In this document: piece by piece, positions 4,223 to 62,591 of the stretch
Layout of the letters: every line of letters starts with the position of its first letter
How positions within the stretch are numbered: position 1 is the stretch's first letter
DNA from: Bacillus sp. 491mf
GTDB taxonomy: Bacteria > Bacillota > Bacilli > Bacillales > Bacillaceae_G
DNA length: 64,000 bases
Direction: 5' to 3'
Assembly (NCBI RefSeq): GCF_900112415.1
Contig: NZ_FOLV01000001.1
Location: forward strand, 310,001-374,000
Notes under the pieces: model-generated
The model's input: only the letters and a program-made list of their open reading frames with translations
Told to the model about the DNA's origin: nothing
The model's database searches: none
Made by a program: the position numbers and the translations under genes

Positions 4223-5920
4223 ATGAAACAAAGTATAATATTTAGTCCTACCCTGCGTGAAGTGCCAGCTGATGCGGAAATTAAAAGTCATCAGCTTCTA
4301 TTGCGCGCAGGGTTTATGCGTCAAAATGCTTCAGGCATATATAGTTTTTTACCGCTTGGTCTGAAAGTGTTGCATAAAGTAGAGCGTATTGTTCGTGAAG
4401 AAATGGAGAAAGCTGGTGCTGTAGAATTGTTAATGCCAGCTCTTCAAGCAGCTGAATTATGGCAAGAATCTGGACGCTGGTATTCATATGGTCCAGAATT
4501 AATGCGTATGAATGATCGTAACAATCGTGAGTTTGCTTTAGGAGCAACGCATGAAGAGGTAATTACTGATCTTGTACGTGACGAAATTAAGTCCTATAAG
4601 AAATTACCTTTAACGCTTTATCAAATTCAAACAAAATTCCGTGATGAGCAAAGACCTCGCTTTGGTTTGTTACGCGGAAGAGAATTTTTAATGAAGGATG
4701 CATATTCTTTCCACGCAACGCAAGAGAGTTTAGATGAAGTGTATAACCGTTTGTTCCAAGCGTACTCTAATATTTTCACACGTTGCGGCTTAAATTTCCG
4801 TGCTGTTATCGCTGATTCTGGAGCAATGGGCGGAAAAGACACACATGAATTTATGGTATTATCAGATGTAGGAGAAGATACAATTGCATATTCTAATACA
4901 TCTGACTATGCTGCAAATATTGAGATGGCACCTGTTCTTGCTTCTTATGAAAAGAGTGATGAAGTAGAAAAAGCGCTTGAAAAAGTAGCTACGCCAGATC
5001 AAAAATCAATTGAAGAAGTGAGTACGTTCTTAAATATTGAAGCGACAAATTGTATTAAGTCTATGGTCTTTAAAGTAGACGAGAAGTTTATTGTTGCTCT
5101 CGTTCGCGGAGATCATGAAGTAAATGATGTTAAGGTGAAAAACTTATACGGTGCTTCAGTTGTTGAACTTGCAAGTCATGAAGAAGTAAAACAATTGTTA
5201 AACTGTGAAGTGGGTTCATTAGGTCCAATCGGCACAGCGGAAGTAGAAATCATTGCTGATCATGCAGTGCAAGCTGTCGTAAATGGATGCTGTGGAGCAA
5301 ATGAAGAAGGTTTCCATTACGTGAATGTAAATCCAGAACGTGACTTTAAAGTAAGTCAATATACAGATTTACGTTTTATCCAAGAAGGAGACCTTTCTCC
5401 AGACGGCGAGGGAACAATTCGTTTTGCTCGTGGTATTGAAGTAGGACATGTATTTAAGCTTGGCACTCGCTATAGTGAATCAATGAATGCAACGTTCTTA
5501 GATGAAAACGGTAAAACACAGCCGATTATTATGGGCTGCTACGGAATTGGAGTATCTCGTACAGTTGCGGCTATTGCTGAGCAATTTAATGATGAGAATG
5601 GTTTAGTATGGCCAAAAGCAGTTGCTCCATTCCATGTACACGTAATTCCAGTAAATATGAAATCTGATGCACAGCGTGAAGTGGGCGAAAAAATCTACAA
5701 TTCATTACAAGAACAAGGATATGAAGTGTTATTAGATGACCGCGCAGAGCGTGCTGGTGTAAAATTTGCTGATGCAGATTTATTCGGTCTTCCAGTTCGA
5801 GTTACAGTTGGTAAAAAAGCTGATGAAGGTATTGTTGAAGTAAAAGTACGTGCAACAAATGAATCTGCAGAAGTAAAAGTCGAAGAACTTCACACATACA
5901 TTGCAAATATTTTAAAATAA
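4223..5920 (+). CDS. proS: prolyl-tRNA synthetase, bacterial type
   Basis: A 565-aa class II aminoacyl-tRNA synthetase charging tRNA-Pro. Motif 2 reads [17 protein letters not shown] near residues 139-155, and motif 3 reads [10 protein letters not shown] near residue 438. The long insertion between them (about residues 225-390) corresponds to the YbaK-like editing domain that hydrolyses Ala-tRNA-Pro. An anticodon-binding domain follows. ATG 4223 has an AAAGAGGTG ribosome binding site. A hairpin follows the stop and partly isolates polC. Confidence 0.96.
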
Positions 5921-6002: not shown

Positions 6003-8898
6003 ATGTCATTAACAAACGAACAACAAGAGCGATTTCAAATTTTGCTCCAACAGTTAAAAATGCCTGAAGACCTTATCAATCAATATTTACAAGGTGGTGG
6101 CATTCAAAGGTTAGTTGTTGATAAAGCAAATAAGAGTTGGCATTTTGATTTACAAGTACCACGTATTTTACCAACAGAATTATATGAATTGCTTGAAACA
6201 CAACTTAAGCAGTCATTTTCTCATATTGCAAAAACGTCATTTTCACTAGAAACAGAGAATAAGCAATTTACGGAAGAAGAGGTTAAGGCGTATTGGCCGC
6301 TCTGTACAGAGCGAATTACTTTCTCGCCTATGTTTGCGTATTTAAAAAAGCAACTTCCGCATGTAAACGGAGTGAAGTTGTTACTTGATGTGAATAATGA
6401 TTTAGAATCTACTGCGCTAAAGAAAAATCTTGCGAAGTCAGTCGGAGACCAATATGAAATTTTTGGATTTCCTCGTTTTCAGCTAGAAACAAATATAAAA
6501 CAAAATGAAGAGGAAGTTCAAAAGTTTCGTGAACAAACACAGCAAGAGGATCGCCAGCGTGTTATACAAGCCATGGAAGAAATGGCCAAGAAACAAGCGG
6601 AAGAAAGTGATATTGTACACGAGGGGCCGATTGTACTCGGTTATCTTATTAAGCCTGATGAAGAAATTACGCCACTTCGTGAAATTCAAGATGAAGAACG
6701 AAGAAAAACGGTACAAGGTTATCTATTTGATGTTGAAACGAAAGAACTACGAAGCGGACGTACGTTATTGACATTAAAGATAACGGATTACACCGATTCC
6801 ATTATGATTAAAATGTTTTCACGCGATAAAGAAGATATTCCACTCTTACAATCATTGAAAAAGGGAATGTGGGTGAAAGCACGCGGATCCGTTCAAAATG
6901 ATACGTTTGTTAGAGATTTAGTCATGATAGCAAACGATATTAATGAAATAACAGGACCATCTCGTAAAGATAAAGCGCCTGAAGGAGAAAAAAGGGTAGA
7001 GCTTCATATGCATACACCGATGAGCCAAATGGATGCTGTAACTTCTGTATCTACACTTGTGAGTCAAGCGGCAAAATGGGGACATGAAGCGGTAGCAGTG
7101 ACAGATCATGCTGTTGCACAGGCTTTTCCTGAAGCGTATTCTGCTGGAAAAAAAGCAGGAATTAAAGTGATTTTTGGGGTAGAAGCAAACCTTGTTAATG
7201 ACGGTGTGCCAATTGCTTATAATGAGGAACATCGATTACTTGCAGACGAAACATATGTTGTATTTGACGTTGAGACAACTGGATTATCAGCTGTATATGA
7301 TACCGTTATTGAGCTTGCTGCAGTAAAAGTAAAAGGTGGAGAAATTATCGATCGTTTTGAATCGTTTGCAAATCCACATCAGCCATTATCAGCAACAATC
7401 ATTGAATTAACAGGTATTACAGATGATATGCTAACGGATGCCCCAGAGGTAGAAGAAGTATTTAAAAAGTTTGAACATTGGATGGGTGATCATACACTTG
7501 TCGCTCATAATGCAAGCTTTGATATGGGGTTTTTAAATGTTGGATTTAAGAAAAGTGGTTTAGAAAAAACGAAAAATCCAGTTATCGACACGTTAGAGTT
7601 GGCTCGTTTCTTATTTCCAGAGATGAAAAACCATCGTTTAAATACGTTATGTAAAAAGCTTGATATCGAATTAACACAGCATCACCGTGCGATTTATGAT
7701 ACAGAAGCAACGGGTTATCTGCTTGTGAAGATGCTGAAAAATGTAATTGAAAAGGGCTTCGAATATCACGATCAGTTAAATGACAGTATGGGACAAGGAG
7801 ATGCGTTTAAACGTGGACGTCCTAGTCATGTGACACTTCTTGCAACGTCAGATGAAGGATTGAAAAATTTATATAAACTTGTTTCTTACGCGCATCTTCA
7901 ATATTTTTATCGTGTCCCACGTATTCCGCGTTCTTTATTAAAGAAGTATCGCGAAGGTATTTTAGTCGGTACGGCTTGTGATAAAGGTGAAGTATTTGAA
8001 GCGATGATGCAAAAAGCACCAGAAGAAGTGGAGGAAATTGCTCAGTTTTATGATTACATTGAGGTAATGCCTCCAGAAGTGTTACGACATTTGGTAGAGC
8101 TTGAGCTTGTTCGTGATGAAGGTCAATTAAAAACAATTATTTCTAACTTAGTAAAGTTAGGTGAAACGTTAGATAAGCCTGTTGTTGGAACTGGAAATGT
8201 TCATTATTTAAATCCAGAAGATGCAATGTACAGAAAAATTTTAGTGAGTTCGCAAGGCGGAGCGAATCCATTAAATCGTCATTCATTGCCGCCTGTGTAT
8301 TTCCGAACAACAGATGAAATGTTAGAATGCTTCTCCTTCTTAGGTGAAGAGAAGGCAAAAGAAATTGTTGTAACAAATACACAAAAAGTCACATCGATGA
8401 TTGGGGACGTAAAGCCTGTAAAAGATGATCTTTACACGCCAAAAATTGAAGGTGCAGATGATGAAACGCGGGATATGAGTTACGTAATGGCTCGAAGTAT
8501 TTACGGAGATGAACTTCCAGAAATTGTAGAAGCCCGCTTGGAAAAAGAATTGAAAAGTATTATTGGACATGGATTTGCTGTTATTTACTTGATTTCTCAT
8601 AAACTTGTAAAGAAATCACTTATCGATGGCTACCTTGTTGGTTCACGTGGTTCAGTTGGTTCATCATTTGTAGCGACAATGATGGAAATTACAGAGGTAA
8701 ACCCTTTACCGCCGCATTATGTTTGTCCAAATTGTAAGCAATCGCAGTTCTTTAATGATGGATCGGTCGGTTCTGGATTTGATTTACCTGATAAAGATTG
8801 TCCAAGCTGTGGAACTGCATATAAAAAAGACGGTCATGATATTCCGTTCGAAACGTTCCTTGGTTTTAAAGGAGATAAAGTTCCGGATATTGATTTGA
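6003..8898 (+). CDS. polC: DNA polymerase III alpha subunit PolC, exon 1
   Basis: First exon of the Gram-positive replicative polymerase: 965 codons plus one base. The start is ATG 6003 after GGAAGGAGG; the frame is open upstream but lacks a ribosome binding site. Domains in order: N-terminal domain, OB fold (about 230-320), PHP half (from about 340), the inserted 3'-5' proofreading exonuclease with DVETTGL near 420 and HNASFDMG near 500, second PHP half, and a zinc finger with two CPxC pairs near 907-940. The exon ends inside the palm motif PDIDL, carrying Asp962 and Asp964, the expected catalytic pair. Unspliced RNA would stop at 8915 and make a polymerase without palm, fingers or C-terminus. 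Joining to 11564 recreates PDIDLNFSGEYQ and a 1433-aa protein. Confidence 0.96.
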
Positions 8899-11563
8899 GT
8901 GCGACACGTTCTTAACTGAAAAGGTTAAGCACTAGCATCTACTAGTAGAACTGCTATTCCGAAGTGTGGAATGATGGAGTAACGTCCTGAAACATACTCA
9001 CTGAAGCTACGGCAAGCGATAGCGATATTGCAAACATCAACATCGTTTGAAGCCCGTTAAAGTAGGCTGAAGTTCACCCTAACGTAAAGACGAGGAAAGG
9101 AAGGTAGAAACCTTCTGTGAATGATAGGTCTGGTGTCTATAAAATTCCTATGGTTAGAATCAGTAGAATCACTGGGACGAACCCTCGACTGACTTTTCGT
9201 GAATGTCACGTAGTAGAAATGTTACGGGGTCCAAATAGGACTTCCAAGTGTGGATGAGTAAGCGTTTGGTTATGAAAATCCATACTGTGTTACAGGCACA
9301 GTCAAGCTTGGCGGAATTTAGGGGGAACCTAAGGGAATTATGTACAGATAGGAATAGTGGAACGTGTGAAGCTTTCGACATAAGAGAAGGTTGTACTTCG
9401 ATGACGATGGTATGTGGAAAGGCAGATGCTATAACACATTTTACGAGAGTGGCAGTAGTGCCGTAGTACCGCTTAATGAAATGCTGAAGATGACTGAATA
9501 ACCAATAAGTCGGAGGGGAAAAACATTTCAGAGGGAAGGGCACAAGTCGTTAACGTCGAAATAAAACCTACAAAAGTCAGATTCGTGTATGACAAAAGAG
9601 AAACGAAAACTTCATAAGGAAGTGATTAGTTGGCTGACTTAATGATTCAAAAATTAAGAAACAATGAATATTTTGGCTTACAATCAACTTTTGATAATCT
9701 TTATGAAGAGAGTAACGAGGGTCGATATTTCAAAAACATATATGAGCTGATTGTTTCTGAAGAAAACATTCGATTAGCCTTTCGTAATTTAAAAAGCAAC
9801 ACTGGTAGTAAAACGAAAGGTACAAATGGACACACAATAAAACATCTTAATAAAATAGATGCTGACAAGCTAATCAGATTAACGAAGAAGAGATTGGAAA
9901 ACTACATGCCACATGCAGTAAGACGTGTGTTTATATCAAAGCCAAACGGGAAAATGCGACCTCTAGGAATTCCAACGATTGAAGACCGATTAATTCAGCA
10001 AATGTTCCTACAAATTTTGGAACCGATTGTTGAAGGGAAGTTTCATCCGCAAAGCTATGGTTTTCGACCAAAACGAAGCACTCATGACGCTTTAGCCAGG
10101 TGTTATCATATGGTCAATCACAGTCACCAACATTTTGTAGTGGACATAGATATTAAAGGTTTCTTTGATAACGTTAATCATAAAAAGTTAATGAGGCAGC
10201 TATGGACAATTGGAATACGAGACAAAAGAGTTTTAGCCATTATCAAAAAGATGCTGAAGGCGGAAATTACAGGCGAAGGCATTCCTGTTAAAGGGACTCC
10301 TCAAGGTGGTATTTTATCCCCATTGCTAGCCAACGTTGTATTAAATGAACTTGACTGGTGGGTGTCAAACCAATGGGAAACAAAACCGACAAGAGTACCT
10401 TATAAATTGAAACGCAATAAAACGGATGCACTTAAAAAGACAAGGTTAAAACCAATGTATCTAGTAAGGTATGCGGATGATTTTAAAATCTTCACAAATT
10501 CCTACGAAAACGCTAGAAAGATTAAAATAGCGGTTGAAAGATGGCTCAAGGAAAGATTAGGACTTGAGATAAGTGAAGAAAAAAGTAAAATCACAAACTT
10601 ACGGAAAAACGGTACAGATTTTTTAGGCATTCGATTTAGAGCAGTTCAGAAGGGGAATGCTAAAACTGGTTATATTGTAAATTCTAAAATGGACCCGAAA
10701 GCGAAAGATAAAGTATTGGGTGTCATTAGGCATCAATTGGTGAAGTTAAGAAAAAGTTCTACTCCAGAAAAAGTAATGAACTTTAACTCCAACATTCTCG
10801 GCTTGCATAATTATTACAAAATTGCAACCAGAATTTCTCAAGATTTTAATGAGATAAGGCATAAAGTTCATCCGAATATAAAATCATTGATGTTTAGAAA
10901 CATCTTTGTTTATACAAAGGAAACGAACAATGTCATTGATAAATTTTATGGAGATTACAATTGTCCAAGGTTTAAAAGCAATGGATTACTGGTCTATCCT
11001 ATTGAAGCAATTCGACATGATATACGAGGTCAAAGAGACCCTAACTTCTCAGTTTATGACGAAAAAGATAGGGCATTAATTCATAAAGAGATAAAGCATG
11101 TGTCTGTATGCGAAATCGAAATGTTTCGTAAAGGAATATATAAAGCGAAAAGTGTTTTGTATGAAAATAACCGCTTAAGTAAATATGTTGCTCAAAAAGG
11201 GTGCTGCGGTATTACAGGGGAACGATTGACTCCTCATAATGCTATCTGTCACCACATCAAGCCAACAACTCAAGGCGGTAGTGATGAATATGATAACTTG
11301 ATTATTATTAATAGGAAATATCATATGTTAATTCACAATAAAGACCCTCTTGCAAATAAAGATTACAAAAAAATGTTAGCCAAGTTTGAAAAGAAAGCTT
11401 CAAACAAATTAAATAAGCTGAGAACGGAAGTAGGGAATCCAAAACTTAGCTTATAAACTTCGACTAAGTTAACGATGGAACGCCGTGTGAGTGTGAAAGC
11501 CTCATGCACGGTGTGGAGTGGGGGAAAAGCTGGAGATAACATCAAATGCTTACCTATCACTAT
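8899..11563 (+). mobile_element. group II intron with reverse transcriptase, inserted in polC
   Basis: The 2665-base element begins with the group II 5' consensus GTGCG (8899-8903) and ends in ...TAT at 11563. Domain V is visible at about 11480-11514: outer stem ACGCCGTG/CACGGTGT, upper stem TGAG/CTCA, GAAA tetraloop. Domain VI follows, with GTGGGGG (about 11518-11524) pairing to CCTATCAC and leaving an unpaired A at 11556, eight bases from the 3' end as expected for the branch point. Splicing joins GATTTGA to ACTTCTCA and restores the PolC frame exactly. A hairpin loop near 9231-9236 (CCAAAT) pairs five bases with the exon end and could be EBS1; this is unproven. The maturase ORF is intact, so the element looks mobile-competent. 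Confidence 0.95.
9630..11456 (+). CDS. group II intron-encoded reverse transcriptase/maturase with HNH endonuclease
   Basis: A 608-aa intron-encoded protein lying in the domain IV position of the polC intron. The N-terminal reverse transcriptase shows RPLGIPTIEDRLIQ, YGFRPKRSTHDA, the DIDIKGFFDN block and the catalytic YADD near residue 284. A maturase (X) region follows. The C-terminus carries an HNH endonuclease: CCGITGERL, then HHIKP and an NLIIINRKYHMLIH end. The start is TTG at 9630 with AAGGAAG at 9616-9622; the next in-frame ATG is only five codons in. It would fold the intron for splicing and drive retrohoming through target-primed reverse transcription. No frameshift or missing motif is seen. 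Confidence 0.93.
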   Translation: MADLMIQKLRNNEYFGLQSTFDNLYEESNEGRYFKNIYELIVSEENIRLAFRNLKSNTGSKTKGTNGHTIKHLNKIDADKLIRLTKKRLENYMPHAVRRVFISKPNGKMRPLGIPTIEDRLIQQMFLQILEPIVEGKFHPQSYGFRPKRSTHDALARCYHMVNHSHQHFVVDIDIKGFFDNVNHKKLMRQLWTIGIRDKRVLAIIKKMLKAEITGEGIPVKGTPQGGILSPLLANVVLNELDWWVSNQWETKPTRVPYKLKRNKTDALKKTRLKPMYLVRYADDFKIFTNSYENARKIKIAVERWLKERLGLEISEEKSKITNLRKNGTDFLGIRFRAVQKGNAKTGYIVNSKMDPKAKDKVLGVIRHQLVKLRKSSTPEKVMNFNSNILGLHNYYKIATRISQDFNEIRHKVHPNIKSLMFRNIFVYTKETNNVIDKFYGDYNCPRFKSNGLLVYPIEAIRHDIRGQRDPNFSVYDEKDRALIHKEIKHVSVCEIEMFRKGIYKAKSVLYENNRLSKYVAQKGCCGITGERLTPHNAICHHIKPTTQGGSDEYDNLIIINRKYHMLIHNKDPLANKDYKKMLAKFEKKASNKLNKLRTEVGNPKLSL

Positions 11564-12969
11564 ACTTCTCAGGAGAATACCAACCACGTGCCCATAACTA
11601 TACGAAAGTACTGTTCGGTGAAGATAATGTATATCGTGCTGGAACAATAGGTACTGTTGCCGAAAAGACCGCGTATGGATATGTGAAAGGATATGCTTCC
11701 GATCATAATTTAACGATACGAGGAGCGGAAGTAGACCGCCTTGTAGCAGGGTGTACTGGTGTTAAGAGAACGACAGGACAACATCCAGGTGGTATTATCG
11801 TAGTGCCAGATTACATGGATGTCTTTGATTTTACACCGATTCAATTTCCAGCAGATTCTTTAGAGGCAGAATGGAGAACGACACATTTTGATTTCCATTC
11901 TATTCATGATAACTTGTTAAAACTTGATATACTCGGACACGATGATCCGACAGTGATTCGTATGCTTCAAGATTTAAGTGGAGTGGATCCAAAGACGATT
12001 CCTACTGATGATCCAGAAGTAATGAAAATTTTCTCGGGTACAGAATCACTTGGCGTAACGGAGGAACAAATTAACTGTAAAACAGGTACACTTGGTATTC
12101 CAGAATTTGGGACGAAATTCGTTCGCCAAATGTTAGAAGAAACGAAGCCGACGACGTTCTCAGAGCTTGTCCAAATTTCTGGACTATCTCACGGTACAGA
12201 TGTATGGCTTGGAAATGCAAATGAACTCATTTATGATGGTACATGTACATTAAGTGAAGTAATCGGTTGTCGTGATGATATTATGGTGTATTTAATTTAC
12301 CAAGGTTTAGAACCGTCTTTAGCGTTTAAAATTATGGAATCTGTGCGTAAAGGGAAAGGTGTGCCTCCAGAGTGGGAAGAGGAGATGCGTAATAATAATG
12401 TGCCGGGATGGTATATTGATTCGTGTAAAAAGATTAAGTATATGTTCCCTAAGGCGCATGCGGCAGCATATGTACTCATGGCAGTGCGCATTGCCTATTT
12501 TAAAGTGCATTTTGCGCTCTTATTCTACGCAGCATACTTTACTGTTCGGGCTGATGATTTTGATGTAGATGCGATGGTAAAAGGCTCAGCAACTATCCGC
12601 ACTAAAATTGATGAAATTACGCAAAAGGGATTAGATGCTTCGCCAAAAGAAAAAAGTTTACTAACAGTATTAGAAATGACACTCGAAATGTGTGAACGTG
12701 GTTATTCATTCCAAAAAGTTGATTTATATCGCTCTAGTGCAACAGATTTTATTATTGATGGGAATACATTGATTCCACCGTTTAATGCAATACCTGGTCT
12801 TGGTACAAATGCTGCATTAAACATTGTAGCAGCACGTGGAAATGGCGAGTTTTTATCGAAAGAGGATTTACAACAGCGCAGTAAGATTTCCAAAACAATT
12901 ATTGAGTATTTAGATAGCCAGGGTTGTCTAGGAGATCTACCAGATCAAAACCAGTTATCGTTGTTCTAA
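11564..12969 (+). CDS. polC: DNA polymerase III alpha subunit PolC, exon 2
   Basis: Second exon, completing the Asn966 codon and encoding residues 966-1433. It starts with the palm continuation [15 protein letters not shown] and runs through fingers and C-terminal regions to the tail [11 protein letters not shown], which fits a beta-clamp binding motif (QLSLF). The two exons sum to 4302 bases, an exact multiple of three including stop. A naive ORF call would begin at an in-intron GTG at 11518, which is spurious. Translation of this half depends wholly on intron removal. Confidence 0.95.
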
Positions 12970-37294: not shown

Positions 37295-37314
37295 TACTTC
37301 GAAATCAAAATAAA

Positions 37315-37384
37315 CCTCATATAATCTTGGTAATAAGGTCCATAAGTTTCTACCTAGCAACCATAAATCTGCTAGACTATGAGG
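37315..37384 (+). ncRNA. purine riboswitch aptamer, guanine type
   Basis: The 70-base aptamer has P1 CCTCATA/TATGAGG, the J1/2 TATAATC, a P2 hairpin with TTGG/AAGG-type arms, J2/3 GTTTCTACCT, and P3 CTAGCA/TGCTAG with loop ACCATAAATC. The closing GACTAT has C at the specificity position (equivalent to C74), which pairs with guanine or hypoxanthine rather than adenine. It is followed by an expression platform. This is direct motif recognition of a well-known fold. Confidence 0.92.
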
Positions 37385-37411
37385 AAAAAGTGTCAATACA
37401 AGGTGTATAAC

Positions 37412-62238: not shown

Positions 62239-62240
62239 TT

Positions 62241-62465
62241 GTGCACCCAGCATACGTCTATTCCAAAATCATAAAGGCAGAAGTAACGATTAGTTTAAGA
62301 CAAGTGTGTACGTGGTGATGCAGAATTTAAGGAAGTCGGCGGAAAATCTCTAGACTGAGGAACTCGAACTACATAGAAGGCTAGGTACTGGATGAGGTTT
62401 CCATACGCAAATCAAAGGCTGTACAAAGTAAATGAAGCAGATAGATGGAGAGGAAGAATATGTGC
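62241..62465 (+). mobile_element. group IIC intron relic (domain I only)
   Basis: Starts GTGCACCCAGCAT, close to the group II 5' consensus. It then shows the ordered domain I blocks of bacterial group IIC introns: GGCAGAAGTAACGATTAG, CAAGTGTGTACGTGGTGA, AAGGAAGTCGGCGG, CTGAGGAACTCGAACT, CATAGAAGGCTAGGT, TGGATGAG and AGTAAATGAAGCAGATAGAT. There is no reverse transcriptase and no recognisable domain V or VI, so it is a truncated, inactive copy. It lies directly after an intrinsic terminator, the preferred IIC target. Confidence 0.82.
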
Positions 62466-62591
62466 TTAATAACCTAACTTATGAAAAATTTATAATGATT
62501 ATTAAATTCTGGAAACCGCGGTTTTACTATTATAATAATGAAAGGTGTAACGCTTTTTCAAAAAAGAATAACACATTCCGCGTTTGCCCCG

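Follow-up and report, generated by a model that had tools for sequence, protein, structure and literature searches.

A stretch of 64,000 nucleotides of Bacillus DNA (the window) carries a group II intron within polC, and PolC is essential in Bacillus. DapA encoded in the window differs at about 33/292 aligned positions (counted by hand) from PDB chain 3hij, a Bacillus anthracis protein as is 1xky, which suggests a relative lying outside the core of the B. cereus group, the group named in the first-pass annotation. The questions raised by this locus are how such an element could enter the gene and be kept there, and whether the cell depends on its removal from the transcript.

Structure of the intron and its place in polC

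The intron occupies 8899-11563 of the window (2665 nt, plus strand), begins with GTGCG, finishes with TAT, and is inserted between bases 1 and 2 of codon N in the PolC motif PDIDL/NFSGEYQP (the slash marks the insertion). The first-pass annotation, made from the letters alone, had placed the element at 8899-11563, which is exact to the base, and it had also rightly located the site in the codon after PDIDL, with the codons for the two DxD aspartates directly upstream. Its further claim that the palm lies downstream of the intron is too simple, because the Pfam DNA_pol3_alpha domain is split in two by the intron. The features of the locus are as follows.

6003-8898, plus strand: polC exon 1, ending in KVPDIDL and the first base (A) of codon N; the start is the ATG of MSLTNEQQ by our choice, and the listed ORF opens at GTG 5937
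8899-11563, plus strand: group II intron, matched by Rfam, ends identical in 34/34 introns
8946-9143, plus strand: match of the ribozyme domain I-IV core to RF02004, 155.4 bits
9630-11456, plus strand: intron-encoded reverse transcriptase/maturase with HNH domain, 608 aa, TTG start, YADD at residue 281
11480-11514, plus strand: domain V, 14 pairs, every cell paired in 26 distinct rows
11517-11561, plus strand: domain VI, 12 pairs, 5 of them changed on both sides, every cell paired in 26 distinct rows
11556, plus strand: bulged A in the predicted fold, likely branch point, same letter in 34/34 rows
11564-12969, plus strand: polC exon 2, the remainder of codon N, then FSGEYQP through the stop

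The core match is to the Rfam model group-II-D1D4-5 (cut-off 34.5 bits), and domains V/VI are matched by Intron_gpII at 11478-11563 (51.0 bits, cut-off 40). The encoded protein matches RVT_1 with 146.2 bits and TIGR04416 (group II RT/maturase) over residues 45-423 with 362.9 bits (cut-off 300), its HNH match is barely above the cut-off (21.5 vs 21.4 bits), and no separate Pfam match to maturase domain X was found in it up to an E-value of 10. The characteristic ends of group II introns, 5' GUGYG and 3' AY, are present in 34/34 introns at this polC position (see below). Domain V of the window intron forms a hairpin with a GNRA-like loop and a 2-nt bulge, and A11556 is bulged in domain VI, 7-8 nt from the 3' end, in the fold predicted for the 3'-terminal 92 nt. 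The core was also matched (140.6-161.5 bits) in 13/13 other polC loci given to Rfam, namely the 11 ORF-poor introns described below together with L107 and L117, and in these neither the core nor domain V falls below the cut-off. A complete ribozyme with its ORF, as well as the unpaired A of domain VI, had been read from the letters at first, and both readings are borne out. In build, the element is, to judge from its sequence, an ordinary mobile group II intron. Assignment to the group IIC terminator-targeting introns was rejected, since the insertion lies inside a polC codon.

Two further RNA elements were observed elsewhere in the window. A fragment of another group II intron at 62240-62470 (RF02001, 65.3 bits at 62309-62464) lies just past an apparent terminator hairpin, with only some 150 bases left before the next gene (both judged by eye); no domain V was found beside it in the Rfam scan of the window, and it is probably a relic. 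A purine riboswitch (Rfam, 77.2 bits) lies at 37297-37399, upstream of genes that were named by eye as a GntR-type regulator, a BMP-type lipoprotein and an ABC transporter ATPase.

Distribution, transfer and target recognition

Scanning genome contigs gave 65 related loci, among which all 15 that are 68% or more identical lie in polC, in the same codon, and span Bacillus, Lysinibacillus, Metasolibacillus, Kurthia, Priestia, Mesobacillus and Domibacillus; beside the other 50 of the 65, no PolC match was found within the examined DNA of each locus. The pattern of the 5' junction was searched in two orders, those of genomes G002 and G008, and occurred in 21/261 and 9/397 genomes (30/658 together, where the absence of the exact pattern is no proof of an empty site); a reversed-pattern control gave 0 in both orders. 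Twelve of these 30 genomes were already among the 15 loci and 18 were new. The sister copies that the first-pass annotation had proposed to look for therefore amount to 33 introns in the same polC codon of other genomes, and with the window there are 34 introns at exactly the same position, both boundaries being common to all; seven or more named genera are represented. As judged by sequence identity, close members of this lineage were found only at the polC site. A one-off insertion in a single genome was rejected in view of the 34 copies. So was the idea that plasmids or phages carry this intron itself: the relatives found on them have less than 60% identity (for plasmids, among the best 5000 records).

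Comparison of introns with their flanking exons suggests recent transfer at this site. The introns of K. huakuii and K. gibsonii are identical at 2643/2653 positions (99.6%), whereas the flanking 60-nt exon blocks are only 0.62-0.88 identical, and between the window and P. abyssalis the introns agree at 2422/2663 positions, with exon blocks at 0.70-0.92. Two of 12 such comparisons (K. huakuii/K. massiliensis and L002/L005) gave no excess of intron identity. At four-fold sites the ORF is more alike than exon 2 in 89/120 pairs with full-length ORFs, and in 31/120 it is not. The intron tree and the host tree disagree: three sister pairs that are starred among the hosts (the two Domibacillus; P. 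abyssalis and FJAT-14578; K. huakuii and K. massiliensis) are rejected as intron clades by the ribozyme data (p-AU 2.75e-59, 1.57e-118 and 6.14e-89), as are the three Kurthia together (AU test, p 0.00228), the tested groups having been named after both trees were seen. These identities and conflicting trees uphold the mobility claimed at first, now in the form of apparent recent same-site transfer between species, and the lineage is, on such comparisons, one that moves between species.

Alternatively, a single ancient insertion might have been inherited vertically by all hosts, with mobility gone. The 17/34 copies with an ORF below 600 aa would be consistent with this, as would the introns of L002/L005 (Lysinibacillus) and of K. 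huakuii/K. massiliensis, which are no more alike than their exons. Such descent is nevertheless contradicted by the trees, given that the ribozyme data reject the three host pairs and the three Kurthia as intron clades, and it also accords poorly with 99.6% identical introns in diverged Kurthia hosts and with the patchy occurrence in 30/658 genomes. Since it would need an artefact that moved the intron alone, we regard vertical descent as very improbable.

A mobile intron of this kind would enter DNA by target recognition, through EBS-IBS pairing together with its protein. EBS1 and EBS2 were both selected after scanning and are tentative; the proposed elements are given below.

8886-8890, plus strand: proposed IBS2 (GATAT), pairs with the proposed EBS2 in 34/34 introns; picked after a scan
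8893-8898, plus strand: proposed IBS1 (ATTTGA), tentative
9203-9207, plus strand: proposed EBS2 (AUGUC), its G opposite the silent third position of an Asp codon
9265-9270, plus strand: proposed EBS1 (UUUGGU), two G facing the third base of Asp and the first base of Leu; tentative

The proposed EBS2 pairs with GAYAU at -13 to -9 in 34/34 introns, with different letters in L015 and L102. It is weakly supported by relatives inserted at other sites, of which 7/22 pair fully at the same place, there with the register shifted by two bases towards the intron. For EBS1, written UU(U/A)GGU, 154/180 positions are paired in the 30/34 introns that fit the search expression, compared with 141/180 in the neighbouring register, and position -3 is mismatched in 23/30 introns, the window's among them. 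Another candidate for EBS1, the hairpin loop CAAAUA near intron positions 333-339, was dropped because it varies freely. In the proposed pairings, the synonymous pyrimidines at -11, -5 and -4 each stand opposite a G, able to pair with either U or C; the variable third base of Ile at -8 falls in the gap between the pairings; and the third base of Leu at -2 faces a U, so that G or A is accepted, but not the C or T found in some genes. If these pairings are right, the intron would be targeted to an amino-acid motif and not to an exact DNA sequence.

The putative target, the PDIDL/NF stretch, is among the most conserved of polC and is on offer in nearly all of the uninterrupted genes read. Empty sites, for which a comparison of polC across genomes had been suggested at the outset, were seen in 40 genes from the order of G008 that were chosen for being uninterrupted: 40/40 read DIDLNFSG(E/D)YQP unbroken across the insertion site, 40/40 offer a match to EBS2 and 36/40 a full match to UUAGGU. 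The choice of target may account for the persistence of the intron. No difference in the target Leu codon was found between interrupted and empty genes (TTR in 31/34 vs 33/40, p = 0.33). Among the relatives at other sites, those at L046 (near 5253) and L048 (near 7930) are placed after GATGAGTATCAAGATA, which would encode DEYQD; we take this to be helicase motif II, and it is possibly another conserved-motif target.

Need for splicing and decay of the reading frame

Whether these hosts have another PolC was assessed by exon 2 matches in the 33 other intron-bearing genomes. The only strong match was the interrupted gene in 15/15 genomes and then in the further 18/18 (E at most 1e-10 for this set of 18). 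The interrupted PolC appears as two pieces in G026 and G359. The leftover exon 2 matches, in 8/15 genomes, are short (19-26 bits) and fall in ORFs of 1022-1126 aa, which were taken for DnaE. A second PolC-like ORF, 38-39% identical, is present in G359 and G527 (1362 and 1381 aa, respectively). In G359 exon 2 of polC is apparently frameshifted (L107, about 6183-6213), and this host, with a second PolC-like ORF as well, might therefore not need the spliced product. With L107 and L117 left out, exon 2 has 76-89% amino acid identity to that of the window and only 29-42% identity at four-fold sites (88.9% and 32.6%, respectively, for P. abyssalis), and exon 2 is thus still under selection as protein.

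The first-pass annotation had asserted that no active PolC can be made without splicing. An interrupted gene as the lone close PolC in 33/33 other genomes argues for this by inference, the check covering those genomes and not the window's own, and cells with the intron would probably be unable to copy their DNA unless the element splices out. In G026, polC would need the removal of two introns, since the same gene contains another group II intron (L117, 2900-3979, minus strand; about 1080 nt, without an ORF), in the A codon of FPK/AHAAAY, with a domain V of 55 bits in Rfam.

The ORF has often decayed. The longest open frames measure 607-608 aa in 17/34 introns, 301-516 aa in 6, where some frameshifts may be false because the assemblies are drafts, and at most 161 aa in 11. 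These 11 ORF-poor introns are 767-1674 nt long, and the ORF-poor state requires at least 7 changes on either the intron tree or the host tree. In L104, a Bacillaceae-1 RNA (64.2 bits, 4232-4302) lies inside the polC intron at the place of the lost ORF, as if another element had entered. The ribozyme is kept: in domains V/VI, scored on the window's own predicted fold, which favours that structure, 676/676 cells form standard pairs in 26 distinct rows (shuffled mean 93.0%). Cells changed on both sides number 50 (shuffled mean 15.3; 0/500 shuffles as high), and the covariation score, 0.268, was reached in 0/500 shuffles (shuffled mean 0.140). Changes on both sides occur in 8/26 pairs, which 20/500 shuffles equal, and the 14 further pair types are no excess, 500/500 shuffles being as high. 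In the ORF-poor rows alone (11 rows, 8 distinct), 208/208 V/VI cells are paired.

This conservation also bears on the idea that PolC is made as two associating polypeptides around an inert intron. The frame of exon 1 does stop inside the intron, at 8915, and that of exon 2 opens inside it, with a GTG at 11518. However, the insertion splits a codon, the intron ends are identical in 34/34 copies, and base pairs of the ribozyme persist, some with both partners changed, in copies that have lost the ORF as well, so that a split gene appears scarcely credible.

In 9/11 of the ORF-poor genomes a further group II RT is present and might assist in trans. None was detected at 1e-5 in G326 and G055, draft assemblies that may miss a maturase gene, and an RT remnant is left within the polC intron of G055 itself. 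The first-pass annotation had made viability depend on the intron's own maturase; this does not hold across the family, as 11/34 introns are without most or all of the ORF and 2/11 of their genomes have no group II RT detected. It is conceivable, though we put it forward tentatively, that some ORF-less polC introns are obligatory and splicing-only without any group II maturase in the genome, either self-splicing or served by a recruited host factor, with intact sisters still homing.

It has also been considered that Mg2+, temperature or maturase could set the PolC level through the rate of splicing. A passage of PMC6003770 speculates that introns in essential genes might serve in regulation. 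Against such a role, among the matches listed (about 150 of 298 genomes, order of G008) most polC genes are uninterrupted (three have a short frame), so that polC can in general do without intron-based control, and we consider a regulatory function unlikely.

Taken together, the intron very probably represents a polC-specific mobile group II lineage that must splice for replication to proceed and that first invades, then loses mobility and is finally kept as a splicing-only intron, as happens in organelles. After entry, splicing of the intron from the transcript would allow PolC synthesis to continue. As polC is essential, and the sole such gene where checked, selection on splicing should be strong and inexact loss should be lethal; selection would keep the ribozyme but not the ORF, and repeated decay of the ORF would therefore leave splicing-only introns, with intact copies meanwhile continuing to invade polC of other species. 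From sequence comparison we infer splicing in vivo, the lethality of loss, the retrohoming route, and self-splicing or borrowed help in the ORF-poor copies.

Known systems and implications

According to passages of four papers, bacterial group II introns are mostly or virtually never found in housekeeping genes (PMC4424553, PMC3522654, PMC6003770 and PMC5072309), for which loss of host mRNA is proposed as the reason in PMC6003770. Recorded exceptions in these passages include the G. kaustophilus recA gene and housekeeping genes both of cyanobacteria and of CL and ML lineages, and a passage of PMC8919778, citing Waldern et al. 2020, mentions group II introns whose insertion disrupts an essential gene. 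The recA intron of Geobacillus kaustophilus (Chee and Takami 2005, as described in PMC4424553 and PMC3522654) likewise lies in an essential or housekeeping gene of Bacillales and is active; as far as those descriptions go, the polC intron differs in a site common to many hosts, repeated ORF loss and interspecies transfer. Introns of the B.c.I4/B.th.I6 type in the B. cereus group, as described in part of PMC3261151, are also protein-encoding group II introns of Bacillus, but carry 53-56 nt past domain VI, and their insertion sites include the plasmid gene pXO1-42, genes for a plasmid DNA primase and a nucleoside transporter, and non-coding DNA. The polC intron ends right after domain VI; exon 2 resumes 2 nt past it with no tail of 53-56 nt, and assignment to the 3'-extension introns was therefore rejected. 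In the relevant part of PMC4649490, the Trichodesmium twintron, for which splicing was shown, also places group II introns in a conserved gene, but consists of two nested introns in one genus, in a host gene of unknown function. The cyanobacterial and CL/ML introns of housekeeping genes and the splicing-only introns of organelles, as presented in a passage of PMC4424553, are likewise retained in housekeeping genes, and those of organelles are ORF-less; in free-living Bacillales, by contrast, ORF-less and mobile full-length copies coexist at one polC codon.

The titles and abstract openings searched contain no report of a group II intron in polC, and an earlier mention, including one in the group II intron database, is possible. 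The combination of one essential-gene codon, many hosts, recent transfers and repeated ORF-less conversion with retention of the ribozyme is new as far as checked. A lineage that crosses genera, repeatedly turns splicing-only and has its close members, as far as found, only in polC is at odds with the housekeeping-gene rule. As intact, broken and ORF-less versions occur naturally at one site, the transition by which a mobile intron becomes domesticated, long invoked to explain how organellar and spliceosomal introns arose, becomes experimentally accessible in cultured bacteria. If some ORF-less polC introns are indeed obligatory and work without any group II maturase in the genome, free-living bacteria have taken the organelle path, and the full cycle of invasion, fixation and decay may be seen within one essential gene.
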